From Candidatus Segetimicrobium genomatis (GTDB taxonomy: Bacteria; Sysuimicrobiota; Sysuimicrobiia; Sysuimicrobiales; Kaftiobacteriaceae), in assembly GCA_005888595.1 (NCBI GenBank), contig VBAL01000091.1, positions 1 to 35,843 of the forward strand: a DNA stretch of 35,843 nt, written 5' to 3'. Below the pieces are notes generated by a model that saw only the letters and a program-made list of their open reading frames with translations, searched no databases and was not told where the DNA came from. Below are positions 26,143 through 34,870 of the stretch, one piece after another. The position numbers were made by a program, and so were the translations under genes. Positions within the stretch are counted from its first letter, which is position 1, and each line of letters begins with the position of its first letter.

Positions 26143-26150
26143 GCGAAAGG

Positions 26151-27215: not shown

Positions 27216-28529
27216 ATGTTCACGCAGGGCTGGCTCCTCCTGGCGTGGTTTCTCCTCGCCGTCGGCGTGGCCACCCGGCACGCGTTTGCCTTTCTGCTGG
27301 GGCTGGTGGTTCTGGGCAGCGCGGCGGCATCATACTTGTGGGACCGGTATTGCCTGGCACGCGTGGAATACCGGCGCGCGTTTACGCCCCGTCGAGCGTT
27401 CTACGGCGAAACGGTGACCTTCACCATGGAGGTCACAAACCGAAAACCACCGCCCCGTCGAGCGTTCTACGGCGAAACGGTGACCTTCACCATGGAGGTC
27501 ACAAACCGAAAACCACTGCCGCTGGCCTGGCTGGAGGTCGTCGATGAACTTCCGCAGCAGCTGGTGCCGCTGTACGGCCGGGTGATTCCCAGCGTACGCC
27601 AGCGCCGCCATCATCTGGTGAATCTCTTTAGCGTGCGCTGGTACGAGCGGGTGCGCCGGCACACGACGCTGCGCTGCGACGCTCGTGGCTATTTTCCACT
27701 CGGCCCGGCGAGGCTGCGATCGGGCGATATCTTCGGCTTCACCGTGCGCGGCATCGACAGCGAGCAGGTGGATCACCTGCTCGTCTACCCGAGGGTCGTT
27801 CCCCTGGCCGCGCTGGGGCTCCCCGCCCTCTACCCGCTGGGCGATGTCCGGCGCCGGCATCTGCTCGAGGACCCCACCCGGATTGCCGGCACCCGCGAGT
27901 ATTCTCCGGGCGATCCCCTGCGCGCGATTCATTGGAAGGCAACCGCGCGGGTGCAGGCGCTGCGGTCTAAGCAGTACGAGGCATCGGCCAGCCATCGCCT
28001 CGTGATTTTCGTCAATCTCGACACGCTGGGCAGGTATGCGGAGTACCGAGGCTTTGTGCGGCCGCTGTTGGAGTTGAACATCATGACCACAGCCTCGATC
28101 GCGAACTGGGCTGTGGAGTCCGGGCATCACCTCGGGCTCTTCGCCAACGGCTACCTCCCGCAGGGGCTGCGATGGGTGCGCATTCTGCCGGCTGCCGGGA
28201 CCAGCCAGCTGGCATCGGTGCTCGAAGCACTGGCCAAGATCTTTCCCACCCCCGTCATGCCGATTGGAGACCTGATGCAGCTGGAGGCCTCCGCCCTGCC
28301 GTGGGGCACCACCGCGGTTGTGGTGACTGCTGTGACGGATGATCCGCTTCGGGTCGGACTGGCGCGGCTGGCGGACGCCGGACACGCCACCGTGGTGATT
28401 CTCATCGGCGACGAGGTGGCCCCGCCGGACATGGCGGTGGCAACGTATCGCGTGCCTGAGGCGCGCGGCTGGCAGGCGCTCGATGGCATTGTGCCCCAGA
28501 CGATTCGCGCAGTTGAGGGTGAGCGCTGA
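27216..28529 (+). CDS. DUF58 protein with an exact 22-residue internal duplication
   Basis: The 437-residue protein has an N-terminal membrane anchor (WLLLAWFLLAVGVATRHAFAFLLGLVVLG), then a beta-rich part and the DUF58 motif GTREYSPGDPLRAIHWKATAR (about 226-246), followed by a VWA-like region. DUF58 proteins usually partner with MoxR. Residues near 57-100 contain FYGETVTFTMEVTNRKP twice: 66 bp are repeated exactly in tandem at 27385-27516, in frame, which adds 22 residues. The duplicate is otherwise without precedent in the family and may be an assembly artefact or a recent event. Confidence 0.9.
   Translation: MFTQGWLLLAWFLLAVGVATRHAFAFLLGLVVLGSAAASYLWDRYCLARVEYRRAFTPRRAFYGETVTFTMEVTNRKPPPRRAFYGETVTFTMEVTNRKPLPLAWLEVVDELPQQLVPLYGRVIPSVRQRRHHLVNLFSVRWYERVRRHTTLRCDARGYFPLGPARLRSGDIFGFTVRGIDSEQVDHLLVYPRVVPLAALGLPALYPLGDVRRRHLLEDPTRIAGTREYSPGDPLRAIHWKATARVQALRSKQYEASASHRLVIFVNLDTLGRYAEYRGFVRPLLELNIMTTASIANWAVESGHHLGLFANGYLPQGLRWVRILPAAGTSQLASVLEALAKIFPTPVMPIGDLMQLEASALPWGTTAVVVTAVTDDPLRVGLARLADAGHATVVILIGDEVAPPDMAVATYRVPEARGWQALDGIVPQTIRAVEGER
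27385..27516 (+). repeat. Exact tandem duplication of 66 bp in the DUF58 gene
   Basis: Copy 1 is 27385-27450 and copy 2 is 27451-27516, identical over 66 bases and in frame. Both start CGCCCCGTCGAGCGTTCTAC. The zero divergence means it is either very recent or an artefact. Confidence 0.95.
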
Positions 28530-30000: not shown

Positions 30001-30012
30001 TTGTGTTATAAT
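30001..30012 (+). promoter_or_regulatory. Extended -10 promoter for the T-box operon
   Basis: TGTTATAAT (30004-30012) is a perfect extended -10 (TGnTATAAT). TTGACA at 29994 is only seven bases upstream, too close to be its -35. The transcript would begin near 30019, just before Stem I of the T-box. Confidence 0.65.
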
Positions 30013-30145
30013 TCCGCTTACCAATTCCATAGTGGCCAATGATCGAGAAGAGTACCCGCCGTCGTGTTTCGAAGAGAGCCGCGGGCCGGTGAGAACGCGG
30101 CAGCCAGACGGTGAGGGAATGGACTCGTGAGGCGCGCACCAAACA

Positions 30146-30218
30146 AGTGAAGAGTGATTAGTGAATAGTGAGTACCTGCTGGCAGTCAGCAGTCACTATT
30201 CACCATTCACTATTCACT
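30146..30218. repeat. Heptamer inverted-repeat element A inside the T-box (GTGAATA unit)
   Basis: Left arm 30146-30173 and right arm 30191-30218 match at 24 of 28 positions, with 7-nt units (GTGATTA, GTGAATA, GTGAGTA). It is flanked by GGCGCGCACC (30131) and GGTTGCGCC (30225), which can pair and hold it as the apex of a Stem II-like helix. Confidence 0.85.
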
Positions 30219-30273
30219 GTAGTAGGTTGCGCCGGTCCTCCACCGTAACTCCGGAGTAACGAGCGCCGGCCCA

Positions 30274-30348
30274 AACTGAAGTTGGAAAGTTGAAAGTTGA
30301 AGAGTTGAATCCAACCCTCCAACTTTCCAACTCTTCAACTCTGCAGTT
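30274..30348. repeat. Inverted-repeat element B inside the T-box (AAGTTG unit)
   Basis: Left arm 30274-30312 has GTTGAAA-type units and right arm 30312-30348 has CAACTTT/CAACTCTT units; the pairing is imperfect and needs gaps. It is closed by GCCC/GGGC and lies just before the antiterminator. Confidence 0.78.
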
Positions 30349-30388
30349 GAGGGCGGGAAGCCGGGTGGCACCGCGGGAGTTTCTAGTA

Positions 30389-30429
30389 CCTCTCGCCCCC
30401 TTGATGGGGTGAGAGGTGTTTGTTTTTTG
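30389..30429 (+). terminator. T-box regulated terminator
   Basis: CCTCTCGCCCC (30389-30399) and GGGGTGAGAGG (30406-30416) form an 11-bp stem with a CTTGAT loop, followed by TGTTTGTTTTTTG. It lies 12 bases after the T-box sequence, as expected. Confidence 0.92.
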
Positions 30430-30457
30430 TGAGCTGTGTTTCGGGCGAGACTTGGAA

Positions 30458-30540
30458 GAACGCAGATGGCAGAACGCAGCAGGCAGAAAGCATTATCTCA
30501 GGGTAGTCTGCGTTCTGCATTCTGCGCTCTGCGTTCTGTC
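30458..30540. repeat. Heptamer inverted-repeat element (GCAGAAC unit), leader of aroF
   Basis: Left arm 30458-30491 and right arm 30508-30540 are GCAGAAC-type and CTGCGTT-type heptamer runs. It lies between the T-box terminator and the aroF start. The unit is the same as in the element at 34765. Confidence 0.8.
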
Positions 30541-30606: not shown

Positions 30607-31647
30607 ATGATTGTCGTCATGGAACCTCGCGCGACGCGCGAGCAGATCGATGCCGTCGTCAAGAAGATCCAGGAGGCCAGCCTGGGTACGCATCTGTCGG
30701 TAGGCGTGGAGCGTACCGTCATCGGCGTGGTGGGCGACAGCCACACCAAGGAACTCCTGCGCCAGTCGCTGGAGGCGACATCCGGTGTGGAGAGAGTCGT
30801 CCCCATCCTGCAGCCGTTCAAACTCGTCAGCCGCGAGTTCAAGTCCGATAACACGGTGGTCGACGTCAAAGGCGTCCACTTCGGCGACGGGTCGGTCGCC
30901 GTCATCGCCGGCCCTTGTTCGGTGGAGGGTCTCGAACAGATTATTGCCACGGCGAAGGCGGTGAAGGCAGCGGGCGCAGTGATGCTGCGCGGCGGAGCGT
31001 TCAAACCGCGTACATCGCCCTACTCGTTTCAGGGCCTGGAGGAGGAGGGCCTGCGCTATCTGGCGGAGGCGCGGAAAGAGACGGGCCTGCCGGTGGTCAC
31101 CGAAGCCATGGATGCGTACCAGTTGCAGCTGGTCACGAAATACGCCGACATGATACAGATCGGCGCCCGGAACATGCAGAACTACACGCTTCTGCGGGAG
31201 GCCGGTCGCGCCAAATACCCGGTACTGATCAAACGCGGCCCCAGCGCCACCATCCAAGAACTGCTGCTGGCGACCGAATACGTCATGAACGAGGGCAACT
31301 ACCAGGTGGTGTTGTGCGAACGCGGCATCCGCGGGTTTGACAACTACACGCGCTATCTGCTCGATCTCAGCGCCGTCCCCGTACTCAAGGAACTCTCGCA
31401 CCTGCCCGTGATCATCGATCCCAGCCAGGGGACGGGGAAGCGCAAATACGTCTCGCCTATGTCGCGGGCGGCAGTGGCCGCCGGCGCGGACGGGTTGATC
31501 ATCGAGGTCCATCCCGACCCCGAAAAGGCGCGCAGCGATGGCCCACAGCAGTTGACCCCGGAACATTTTCGGACCTTGATGTCGGAGCTGGACCCGCTGG
31601 CGAAAGCACTCGGACGAAGGATGCAGGCGCCCCTACTAACGCGATGA
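30607..31647 (+). CDS. aroF: DAHP synthase, Thermotoga-type (AroF/AroA-beta) with N-terminal regulatory domain
   Basis: DAHP synthase condenses PEP and erythrose 4-phosphate, the first shikimate step. From ATG 30607 (GGGGG upstream) it is 346 residues. Residues 1 to about 70 ([21 protein letters not shown]) are a ferredoxin-like domain that in this class mediates feedback inhibition, then the barrel: [10 protein letters not shown] (metal Cys), [57 protein letters not shown] (metal Glu and Asp). The DPSH motif, whose His is a metal ligand, reads [10 protein letters not shown] here. It is the first gene after the Trp T-box. The earlier ATG 30580 in the track ORF is less likely. Confidence 0.93.
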
Positions 31648-31726
31648 TTGCGGACCGTAAATTGACGATTTTGAATTGGCACGCACGTCCCAATTTACAA
31701 TTTACAATTGTCAATTGGCAATCCGC
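31646..31726. repeat. Heptamer inverted-repeat element (CAATTTA unit), aroF-tyrA
   Basis: The left arm starts at the aroF stop (31646-31679) and the right arm is 31689-31726, with units CAATTTA, CAATTTA, CAATTGT, CAATTGG. Outer ends GATTGCGGA and AATCCGC also pair. It is notably AT-rich for this region. Confidence 0.8.
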
Positions 31727-31741
31727 AGTGGGGGTTTTGTA

Positions 31742-32611
31742 GTGGATCGTCTCGGCACTGTCGGCATCGTTGGTGTAGGCCTCATCGGCGCGACTATTGG
31801 TTTGGCCCTCCGGCAGCGGGCGGTGGCCGGGCAGGTCGTGGGCGTCGACATCGACGCGCAGGCGATTGCGGCGGCGCGCGAGATCGGCGCACTGGACGCC
31901 GGGGGCGCGGACCTGGACGCGCTCCGCCCCGCCGACTTGGTCGTCGTGGCCGTGCCGCCGGACGACGTGGTCAGCACGGCGGTGCAGGCGGCCGCGGTGA
32001 TGAAGCGAGGGAGCATTTTGACCGATGTAGCCAGCACGAAAGCTGAGATCGTGCGCGCGCTGGATGAGAGGCTGGCCGGGCGCGTTCGCTACATCGGCGG
32101 GCATCCCATGGCCGGCTCCGAAGGCCGTGGCGCGCGCATGGCCGATCCCGCATTGCTGTCGGGCCGGCCGTTTCTGTTGACGCCGACCGACCGCACGGAT
32201 CCTGCCGCGGTGTCGACGATGACAGAAGTTGCGGAGCAACTGGGGATGCTGCCGGTGCTGCTGTCGCCGGATGATCACGATGATCTGGTGGCGCAGGTCA
32301 GCCACCTCCCGTACCTGATGGCAGTGGCAGCGGTGGGGGCGGCCACGGACCGGGCGATCGGCATCGGCGGTCCGGCGTTCGGTGGGCTGGGCCGCATCGC
32401 CCGTGGCCCGGTCGAACTGTGGGTCCAGATCTGCCGGAGTAATCGTGCCGCCATCAGGCGGGCGCTGGGACAGTTCCGGCGGGAGCTGGACCGGTTGGAA
32501 CGCGCGATGGAAGGCGAAGAGCCATTGGAGATCCTGTTGCAGCGGAGCCGGCGTCGAGCCCCCGTGGACGGCGTTCCACTCGATAAGCCTCCGCGCAAGT
32601 CGGTAACGTGA
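31742..32611 (+). CDS. tyrA: Prephenate dehydrogenase
   Basis: TyrA oxidises prephenate to 4-hydroxyphenylpyruvate, using NAD, for tyrosine. The start is GTG 31742, with GGGGG seven bases upstream, giving 289 residues (VDRLGTVGIVGVGLIGATIGLAL). It has the Rossmann GVGLIG, DVASTKAEIV, YIGGHPMAGSEGRGARMADP (catalytic His) and DHDDLVAQVSHLPYLMA. The usual GF(R/K)DxTRIA motif reads AFGGLGRIARG. There is no ACT or mutase domain. The stop overlaps trpE by one base. Tyrosine-branch placement in a Trp-controlled operon is unusual. Confidence 0.92.
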   Translation: MDRLGTVGIVGVGLIGATIGLALRQRAVAGQVVGVDIDAQAIAAAREIGALDAGGADLDALRPADLVVVAVPPDDVVSTAVQAAAVMKRGSILTDVASTKAEIVRALDERLAGRVRYIGGHPMAGSEGRGARMADPALLSGRPFLLTPTDRTDPAAVSTMTEVAEQLGMLPVLLSPDDHDDLVAQVSHLPYLMAVAAVGAATDRAIGIGGPAFGGLGRIARGPVELWVQICRSNRAAIRRALGQFRRELDRLERAMEGEEPLEILLQRSRRRAPVDGVPLDKPPRKSVT

Positions 32612-34149
32612 TGGCGACGGTACTGGATATCGAACCGACCAAAACTGAGTTTCTCAGCCGCGCCCGCGGCGGCAACCTCATCCCGGTGTCATGCGAGTTG
32701 CCGGCCGACCTGGAAACACCCATCTCCACATTTATGAAGGTCCGCGGGGACGGCGACGCCTTCTTGCTGGAGAGCGTGGAAGGCGGCGAGCGCATCGGCC
32801 GCTATTCCTTCATCGGCAGCCGCCCGATGATGACCATCGTCTCCCGAGGCGATCAGGTGGAGATCCGCGAGGGGCCGCCAGGCGACGGTGCGCGCGCCAG
32901 GCGGGTGGAACGGCAGACGGCTGATGTGCTGGACGTGACCCGCGGCCTTCTCCGCCGACACCGGCCCGTGCCGGATCCTTCGCTGCCCCGGTTCGCCGGC
33001 GGCGCCGTCGGCTACTTCGGGTACGATCTGGTGCGCTCATGGGAGCGGCTGCCCAACCGGCCGGTGGATGACCTGAGCCTGCCGACATGCTATCTGGCCG
33101 TGGCCGATACCGTCGTCATCTTTGATCACGTGCGGCACACGATGAAGATCGTGGCGAACGCGGCCGTGGACGGCGACGGAGGTGCCGCCTACCGGCGTGC
33201 CGTTGAGAGAGTCGAGCAACTCTACGAGCGGCTGCGAACGCCGATCGTGGCGGTCCAGGGCGGCGGCAGGATCCACCCCGCGATGGACACCGACATGCCG
33301 GTGTCCGCGTTCCTCGGGGCCGTCGAGCGTGCCAAGGAGTACATCCGCGCCGGTGACATCTTCCAGGTCGTGCTGTCACGCCGGTTCTCAGCGGTGGTCG
33401 AGGATGTGGACGCGCTGGACATCTACCGTGCGCTGCGCACGGTAAACCCCTCGCCGTATATGTTCTTCCTGGACTTCGAAGACGCGAAAATCATCGGATC
33501 CTCGCCGGAACTGCTGGTGCGCCTGGAAGGCGGCGTCGTGGAATCCCGGCCGCTCGCCGGCACGCGGCCGCGTGGGGATACGGACGAGGATGATCGGGGG
33601 CTGGAAGCGCAGCTGCTGGCCGACGAGAAGGAGCGCGCGGAGCACGTGATGCTGGTGGACCTGGGGCGGAATGACCTGGGCCGGGTCTGTGACTACGGGA
33701 CCGTGCGTGTGACGGATCTGATGAGCGTGGAACGATTCTCGCACGTCATGCATATCGTCTCGGATGTGCAGGGCCGCCTCAGAGCGGACCTGGACGCGAT
33801 TGACGTGTTGCGGGCCTGCTTCCCTGCCGGCACCGTGACCGGCGCACCGAAAGTGCGCGCCATGGAGATTATCGACGAGCTGGAACCGGTTTCGCGTGGC
33901 CCGTATGCCGGCGCGGTCGGCTATCTCGGCTTCTCGGGCAACATGGACACGGCCATCACCATTCGTACCATCGTCATGGCCGGGAACCGTGCCTACGTGC
34001 AGGCCGGCGCCGGGATCGTGGCCGACTCTGTCCCGGAACGCGAGTATGTGGAGACGGTGAACAAAGCCAAGGCACTTGTGAAAGCGATGGAGAGAGTGAA
34101 TCGGAGGAAGGTGGAGGCGCCCCCGCGCGTGGACGCGGATACGCGATAA
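32611..34149 (+). CDS. trpE: Anthranilate synthase component I
   Basis: TrpE makes anthranilate from chorismate with ammonia from TrpG. From ATG 32611 (TGATG overlap with tyrA) it is 512 residues, normal length. The N-terminal part contains LIPVSCELPADLETPISTFMKV and LLESVEGGERIGRYSFIG (the Trp feedback region LLES), and the C-terminal chorismate-binding domain contains DIFQVVLSRRFSAVVEDVDALDIYRALRTVNPSPYMFFL, SSPELLVRLEGG, GTRPRGDT, LVDLGRNDLGRV, FPAGTVTGAPKVRAMEII and GAGIVADSVPEREY. Feedback by tryptophan at the LLES site is inferred from the family. Confidence 0.96.
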   Translation: MATVLDIEPTKTEFLSRARGGNLIPVSCELPADLETPISTFMKVRGDGDAFLLESVEGGERIGRYSFIGSRPMMTIVSRGDQVEIREGPPGDGARARRVERQTADVLDVTRGLLRRHRPVPDPSLPRFAGGAVGYFGYDLVRSWERLPNRPVDDLSLPTCYLAVADTVVIFDHVRHTMKIVANAAVDGDGGAAYRRAVERVEQLYERLRTPIVAVQGGGRIHPAMDTDMPVSAFLGAVERAKEYIRAGDIFQVVLSRRFSAVVEDVDALDIYRALRTVNPSPYMFFLDFEDAKIIGSSPELLVRLEGGVVESRPLAGTRPRGDTDEDDRGLEAQLLADEKERAEHVMLVDLGRNDLGRVCDYGTVRVTDLMSVERFSHVMHIVSDVQGRLRADLDAIDVLRACFPAGTVTGAPKVRAMEIIDELEPVSRGPYAGAVGYLGFSGNMDTAITIRTIVMAGNRAYVQAGAGIVADSVPEREYVETVNKAKALVKAMERVNRRKVEAPPRVDADTR

Positions 34150-34183
34150 CGTGACCGCGCGACCGCGCGACGGCGCCACGGCC

Positions 34184-34819
<636 letters not shown>

Positions 34820-34870
34820 CTGCGTTCTGCATTCTGCGGTCTGCATTCTGGCATTAGCGGGGAGGCCCGT

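Follow-up and report, generated by a model that had tools for sequence, protein, structure and literature searches.

A Trp T-box leader with two dispersed-repeat hairpins as probable passengers in its Stem II and Stem III loops

In T-box riboswitches, Stem II ranges from ~10 to 200 nucleotides (nt), insertions of unknown structure or function occur in every domain (PMC7583486), and a purine motif, 5′-RRRxG-Stem III-AA-3′, is conserved (PMC7778990, PMC7583486). In another structured RNA, the group I intron of Nostoc tRNA-Leu(UAA), the P6b stem always consists of one of two heptamer motifs; the classes have replaced each other repeatedly, and a functional role has been proposed for them (PMC4476775). 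Here, we describe a Trp T-box leader at positions 30030-30403 of a 35,843-nt stretch of DNA from Candidatus Segetimicrobium genomatis (contig VBAL01000091.1; the whole stretch is called the window below). The leader carries two hairpins made of 7- or 8-nt tandem repeats, one of 73 nt in the Stem II loop and one of 75 nt in the Stem III loop. We consider it quite probable that this transcriptional T-box senses uncharged tRNA-Trp and controls aroF-tyrA-trpE-trpG, with the two hairpins as passengers from a dispersed repeat class.

The leader shares with RF00230 Trp T-boxes a Stem I with UGG, the S-turn AGUA, a IIA/B element, the RRRxG-Stem III-AA motif, a UGGC bulge, and a terminator; unlike them, it contains the two dispersed-repeat hairpins and scores below the Rfam cut-off. 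Lineage-specific inserts in Stem II, Stem III, and other T-box domains are likewise common and unexplained (PMC7583486), whereas the inserts described here belong to a repeat class found throughout the genome, and the orthologous leaders occur filled, empty, or swapped. Nostoc P6b is similar in that a peripheral stem of a functional RNA is built from complementary 7-nt tandem repeats and is swapped without following the species tree (PMC4476775). There, however, the host is a group I intron of cyanobacteria with two motif classes, TDNGATT and NNTGAGT (PMC4476775); here it is a riboswitch in another phylum, with many 7- or 8-nt unit families, two host loops, and many leaders per genome, and the units AGTGAAT and AGTTGAAA do not fit the Nostoc consensus. 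The T-box is therefore a new host RNA, in a new phylum, for heptamer hairpins known from the Nostoc trnL intron. Finally, the TAACTGA heptamers of Beggiatoaceae and cyanobacteria are also abundant intergenic 7-nt tandem repeats near gene starts, but they are one-strand direct repeats of a single unit rather than many-unit hairpins and are not reported there in riboswitches (PMC4679880).

An intact T-box core around two repeat hairpins

The elements of the leader are as follows (window positions, all on the + strand):

30030-30403 (+): T-box leader RNA, full RF00230 model, 69.3 bits
30034-30130 (+): Stem I, limits approximate, from the covariance-model alignment and an alignment of ten Trp leaders
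30120-30122 (+): specifier codon UGG (Trp), in a GAAUGG that is invariant in ten orthologous leaders, matching the anticodon CCA of the genome's own tRNA-Trp
30134-30140 (+): Stem II 5′ strand GCGCACC, pairing with 30225-30232, with compensatory changes in relatives
30146-30218 (+): heptamer-repeat hairpin 1 (unit AGTGAAT) in the Stem II terminal loop, from periodicity, RF00230 alignment, and pair probabilities
30221-30224 (+): AGUA immediately downstream of hairpin 1, forming the 3′ half of the Stem II S-turn and aligned to the RF00230 AGUA; GUAG is conserved in Trp leaders
30225-30232 (+): Stem II 3′ strand GGUUGCGC, from the covariance-model alignment and pair counts
30232-30260 (+): Stem IIA/B region, from the covariance-model alignment
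30261-30265 (+): GAGCG, the 5′-RRRxG motif preceding Stem III (motif from PMC7778990, PMC7583486)
30266-30272 (+): Stem III 5′ strand CCGGCCC, from the covariance-model alignment and pair counts
30274-30348 (+): repeat hairpin 2 (units AGTTGAAA/AGTTGAA) in the Stem III terminal loop, from periodicity, RF00230 alignment, and minimum free energy (MFE) pairing
30351-30359 (+): Stem III 3′ strand GGGCGGG plus the conserved AA, with one G-G mismatch; the counterpart in G001 (see below) is fully paired
30363-30403 (+): antiterminator with the T-box sequence GGGUGGCACCGCGG, from the RF00230 alignment; its bulge UGGC (30366-30369) is complementary to the GCCA 3′ end of the own tRNA-Trp
30388-30428 (+): intrinsic terminator, a 13-bp stem (30388-30417) followed by a U-rich tract, from fold and sequence

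By its sequence, the leader is a transcriptional T-box riboswitch with a long Stem I and Trp specificity. It matched RF00230 over the full model (positions 1-219), with an E-value of 6e-15 in a local scan and 7.1e-15 in a genome-wide search. An Rfam scan of the window at the default threshold listed nothing because the curated gathering score of this family is 93 bits, which is a threshold for listing and not a structural feature; the local E-value scan revealed the leader. An insert-free orthologue of the Trp leader (G007:C10) reaches 97.6 bits, above the cut-off, and nearly all T-box leaders of the genus fall below it, with or without inserts. Matches of the hairpins to microRNA and small nucleolar RNA models were below their cut-offs and were dismissed as chance matches of eukaryotic hairpin models. 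Both tRNA contacts match the genome's own tRNA-Trp (located with RF00005 plus ARAGORN), since specifier UGG fits its anticodon CCA and bulge UGGC its 3′ end GCCA, and the specifier also fits the pathway of the aroF-tyrA-trpE-trpG genes downstream.

Our comparison set comprised nine genomes from the family, two of which belong to the genus itself, and 33 from elsewhere in the order; all sequences are metagenome-assembled genomes (MAGs), and the genome under study (G000) is 88% complete. Below, genomes carry G numbers and loci L numbers. The same architecture, including both hairpins, occurs in the separately binned genome G001 (contig VBAP01000032.1, isolate NP_8), which rules out an assembly artefact as the source of the leader with its hairpins. 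When ten Trp leaders, drawn from four families of the order, were aligned, GAAUGG proved invariant and the T-box sequence almost so. The distance between specifier and T-box varied: the leaders of G000 and G001 have 238 nt there, that of G012, with inserts of its own, has 255 nt, and those of G004, G005, G006, G007 (two copies), G010, and G031 have 90-158 nt. Identical Trp leaders were also found in two genomes placed in separate genera (G007:C5, L048, and G009:C53, L179), which suggests cross-binning of one contig.

The base stems covary, and the repeat arms do not. Specifically, Stem II (GCGCACC/GGUUGCGC, with one bulged base) is paired in 64 of 70 cells across the ten leaders, with C-G changed to G-C and A-U changed to C-G, G-C, or U-G, and Stem III is paired in 49 of 50 cells, where several changes are fully compensated; these counts come from hand segmentation that leans towards structure, as MAFFT misplaces Stem III in insert-bearing leaders. 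The partition function gives Stem II a probability of ~0.98. Stem II with its S-turn and the IIA/B element align to RF00230, the purine motif is present as GAGCG…AA, and a competing antiterminator (aligned) and terminator (13-bp stem and U tract) both follow. With these parts in place, we infer that switching by tRNA-Trp is probably intact.

The arms of hairpin 1 (30146-30171 and 30193-30218; AATAGTG unit type) are 88% complementary with a 7-nt period, and their pair probabilities mostly range from 0.8 to 1.0. Hairpin 2 (AGTTGRAA type) consists of mixed 7- and 8-nt units, and the MFE fold pairs 30274-30278 with 30344-30348 at 0.87-0.99.

An earlier note on this DNA, made from the letters alone, had proposed a Trp T-box with two inserted heptamer hairpins, and the full-length RF00230 match, the UGG specifier, and the periodic complementary arms bear this out. 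Its view that the sensing and switching parts are intact agrees with the presence of Stem I, UGG, antiterminator, UGGC bulge, and terminator. The note had left open whether the central region was replaced or expanded: it is expanded, and replacement is ruled out, as Stem II, the IIA/B region, and Stem III were all found. The GGCGCGCACC/GGTTGCGCC helix that it saw closing one insert at the Stem II apex proved to be Stem II itself, with compensatory changes in nine UGG-leader relatives. One insert does grow from there, as the note supposed; the second grows from Stem III, and across the genus such inserts are the rule rather than the exception.

Repeat inserts in related leaders and across the genome

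Periodic repeat arms were recognized by eye in ~20 of 26 T-box leaders of the genus, a count that depends on the reader, and an automatic detector confirmed 14. All of these arms map to the loop regions of Stem II or Stem III, and Stem I, the IIA/B region, the antiterminator, and the terminator are free of them, among leaders whose Stem I is sound enough to be detected (those broken in Stem I would escape). Orthologous leaders were found filled, empty, or swapped. The ilvB leader has a CGCAGTCG-type insert in Stem III in G000 (L001) versus a AGTTGGAA-type insert in G001 and G002 (L027, L035). In the pheS leader, Stem III is filled in G000 and G001 (L002, L154), whereas in G002 (L156) it is empty and Stem II is filled. 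The proS leader has no repeat in G000 (L007) and is filled in G001 (L165), and in the valS leader both loops are filled in G000 and G001 (L008, L161), with none filled in G002 (L158). Here, ilvB and, below, ilvE were identified by profile matches and the other leader genes by reading translations. Among other genera, the Trp leader of G004 has a Stem II hairpin of its own, and those of G005, G006, G007, and G009 have none.

The comparison with related leaders was suggested by the earlier note, which had set beforehand, as the pattern contrary to its idea, normal stems whose covariation includes the repeat arms; what we found was short Stem II and Stem III in most relatives and arms without covariation. 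Comparison by eye of the one empty and filled pair examined (L007 and L165) revealed neither a clean insertion junction nor a target duplication; a MITE or REPIN-type mobile element would be expected to show such a duplication, together with fixed terminal inverted repeats and a transposase partner. As a separate observation, the proC leaders (L009, L163, L160) and a pheS-type leader of G004 (L189) have a 5′ arm in the Stem II loop and a 3′ arm in the Stem III loop; these split arms are mutually complementary and could pair across the IIA/B region.

Hairpins of this kind are not confined to T-boxes. A census of 503 kb of G000 genome stretches, with a detector of inverted repeats that have 7- or 8-nt periodic arms, found 72 hairpins versus 1 in an order-3 Markov control, and at least 50 of the 72 lay outside open reading frames (ORFs) as predicted by a crude ORF caller. 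Unit families are numerous, including AATCACG, AAACGTTG, AACGCAG, AATAGTG, ACTGCTG, and AAAGTTGG, and both the AATAGTG and the AAAGTTGG family form hairpins outside T-boxes as well. The flanks of the 72 hairpins pair no better than shuffled flanks, and preferential insertion into hairpin loops was therefore ruled out as a general rule.

The class also turns over between close genomes. G000 and G001 share ~96% DNA identity here and have both T-box hairpins and a hairpin at 30457 in common, and the hairpins at 26150 and 31660 of the window are absent from G001. Where the arms differ between the two genomes, compensating changes are not consistently present. At two junctions, trpE-trpG (window 34073-34183) and trpG-trpD (window 34760-34860; both compared with L073), hairpins of another unit take the place of the G000 hairpins in G001, so that one class has replaced another in place.

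Probable tolerated passengers and competing explanations

The hairpins are most likely tolerated passengers that fold outside the switching core. Two members of the dispersed class of 7/8-nt tandem inverted repeats would have come to sit in the terminal loops of Stems II and III, where each would fold independently into a long hairpin pointing away from the core. The S-turn, the IIA/B element, the Stem III purine motif, and the choice between antiterminator and terminator would thereby work as usual. Such passengers would survive since both loops make no required contact, and they would come, go, and be exchanged between related genomes. Because the flanks of the 72 hairpins give no sign of general hairpin-loop targeting, confinement to two T-box loops is best read as survival where insertion is harmless. 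The comparison thus favours tolerance over use of the insertions by the RNA and suggests that the tips of Stems II and III act as tolerated landing sites; the hairpins themselves, we infer, are probably neutral in function.

Several observations weigh against this account. G000 and G001 have both retained the two T-box hairpins although several neighbouring hairpins turned over, a pattern that a mild function would likewise predict. With a strict detector, ~6 hairpins fall in the ~2.1 kb of G000 leader core, versus 1.5-2.2 expected from the density in noncoding DNA, and this mild excess could leave room for some preference or use. In addition, the leader scores 69.3 bits against a cut-off of 93, Stem III has a G-G mismatch in G000 where G001 is fully paired, and the unconstrained MFE fold of the whole leader lacks a canonical Stem I, which is usual for T-boxes.

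Some of these points would fit functional extensions: for folding speed, transcription pausing, stability, or an added tRNA contact, T-boxes in this lineage would require a long Stem II and/or III and draw on any repeat hairpin available. The mild excess in leaders over noncoding DNA agrees with such a need, as do the repeated use of the same two loops and the replacement of one class by another in place (L001 versus L027/L035), which resembles Nostoc P6b (PMC4476775). We nevertheless regard this explanation as unlikely, given that many orthologous leaders of the genus or family are short-looped (L007, L158, L046, L048, L176, L181), that in-place replacement also occurs at junctions without a T-box, such as trpG-trpD, and that the arm differences between G000 and G001 lack consistent compensation. 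The low score and the G-G mismatch could instead indicate a decaying pseudo-riboswitch that the inserts broke, leaving the operon constitutive or otherwise controlled. This is very improbable: the core motifs are all intact and match the own tRNA-Trp, G001 keeps the architecture with a fully paired Stem III, and nearly all leaders of the genus fall below the cut-off regardless of inserts. Hardly credible at all are ordinary lineage-specific elaborations of Stems II and III whose repeat character arose from chance low complexity, as the same units form hairpins far from any T-box (72 versus 1 in the Markov control) and their presence varies between orthologues.

The filled, empty, and swapped orthologous leaders show that repeats scattered through a bacterial genome can add nearly 150 nt to a riboswitch and leave its core untouched. 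They also trace at least part of the T-box insertions that reviews list as unexplained (PMC7583486) to a definite source, and, if the two hairpins are tolerated passengers, they mark which T-box loops are free in nature.

The trp locus and a tRNA gene nested in the Leu leader

The surroundings of the leader comprise the following features (window positions):

30007-30012 (+): TATAAT, a −10-like element of the leader promoter (extended TGTGTTATAAT), from sequence; G005, G006, and G007 have TGTGYTATAAT at the corresponding position
30457-30537 (+): third heptamer-repeat hairpin (unit AGAACGC), between terminator and aroF and outside the T-box, also in G001
30610-31647 (+): aroF, DAHP synthase, first controlled gene (NF006421, 1.2e-148; TIGR01361, 1.6e-119)
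31676-32611 (+): tyrA, prephenate dehydrogenase (NCBIfam, 3.3e-51)
32608-34149 (+): trpE (TIGR00564, 8.5e-172)
34151-34819 (+): trpG (TIGR00566, 9.7e-70)

The aroF product shares 98% identity with its counterpart in the MAG “Terrabacteria group bacterium ANGP1 isolate NP_8” (VBAP01000032.1) and 65-79% with those in several MAGs filed as Armatimonadetes, CSP1-3, and Bacillota; these names suggest that the host belongs to phylum CSP1-3/Sysuimicrobiota. Elsewhere in the window, a tandem 66-bp duplication (98% identical; 27385-27520) lies inside the ORF at 27216-28529 and gives a repeated PRRAFYGETVTFTMEVTNRKP segment.

A different kind of insert was found in the Leu T-box leader (specifier CUC), whose Stem III loop houses an entire tRNA-Ala(GGC) gene, encoded CCA included, as detected by ARAGORN:

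G000:C297:28101-28175 (L261:8101-8175): nested tRNA-Ala(GGC) of the own genome
L166, L188, L190, L203, L229, L231-L236, L267-L276, L288-L292: other leaders with a nested tRNA

In L166, the leader is followed by ilvE and then leuS. In 16 genomes, a T-box motif follows the tRNA within ~115 nt, with G009, interrupted by a contig end, as a 17th; the genomes with a nested tRNA are members of families f1 (including G000), f2, f4, and f5. The helix enclosing the tRNA pairs far better within than across genomes (mean −14.0 versus −8.2 kcal/mol; 0 of 300 shuffles), which indicates covariation. When searched with the nested tRNA, most of these genomes yielded just one close copy, and in family f7 the same tRNA-Ala stands alone behind a TATAAT, without a T-box. 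A literature search with partial coverage found no report of a tRNA gene inside a T-box.

Tentatively, the Stem II and III loops of the T-boxes of this phylum might be general docking sites for exchangeable RNA modules, with changing repeat hairpins in many leaders and tRNA-Ala(GGC) in the Leu leader, so that tRNA processing and the T-box decision would be coupled; we consider this possible but doubtful. If it holds, the tRNA would act as the Stem III loop of a leader that both regulates ilvE-leuS and supplies tRNA-Ala(GGC), of which the cell has no other close copy. Were the nested tRNA-Ala processed, one transcript would be both a tRNA precursor and a tRNA sensor.

Judging by the title of a 1997 paper by Vioque, STRR heptamers reportedly lie inside the RNase P RNA of heterocystous cyanobacteria; as far as that title goes, the likeness to the Trp leader would be genome-dispersed heptamers in a structured RNA, and the differences would be the RNA and the phylum. 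In the present data set, the RNase P RNA of G001 (L296:256-713) is ~50 nt longer in the P12 loop than that of G002 (L297:1501-1881), and the insert ends in GAGCGUAGCGAGUGG, a dispersed repeat type distinct from the heptamers that is also found beside the nested tRNA in L166.
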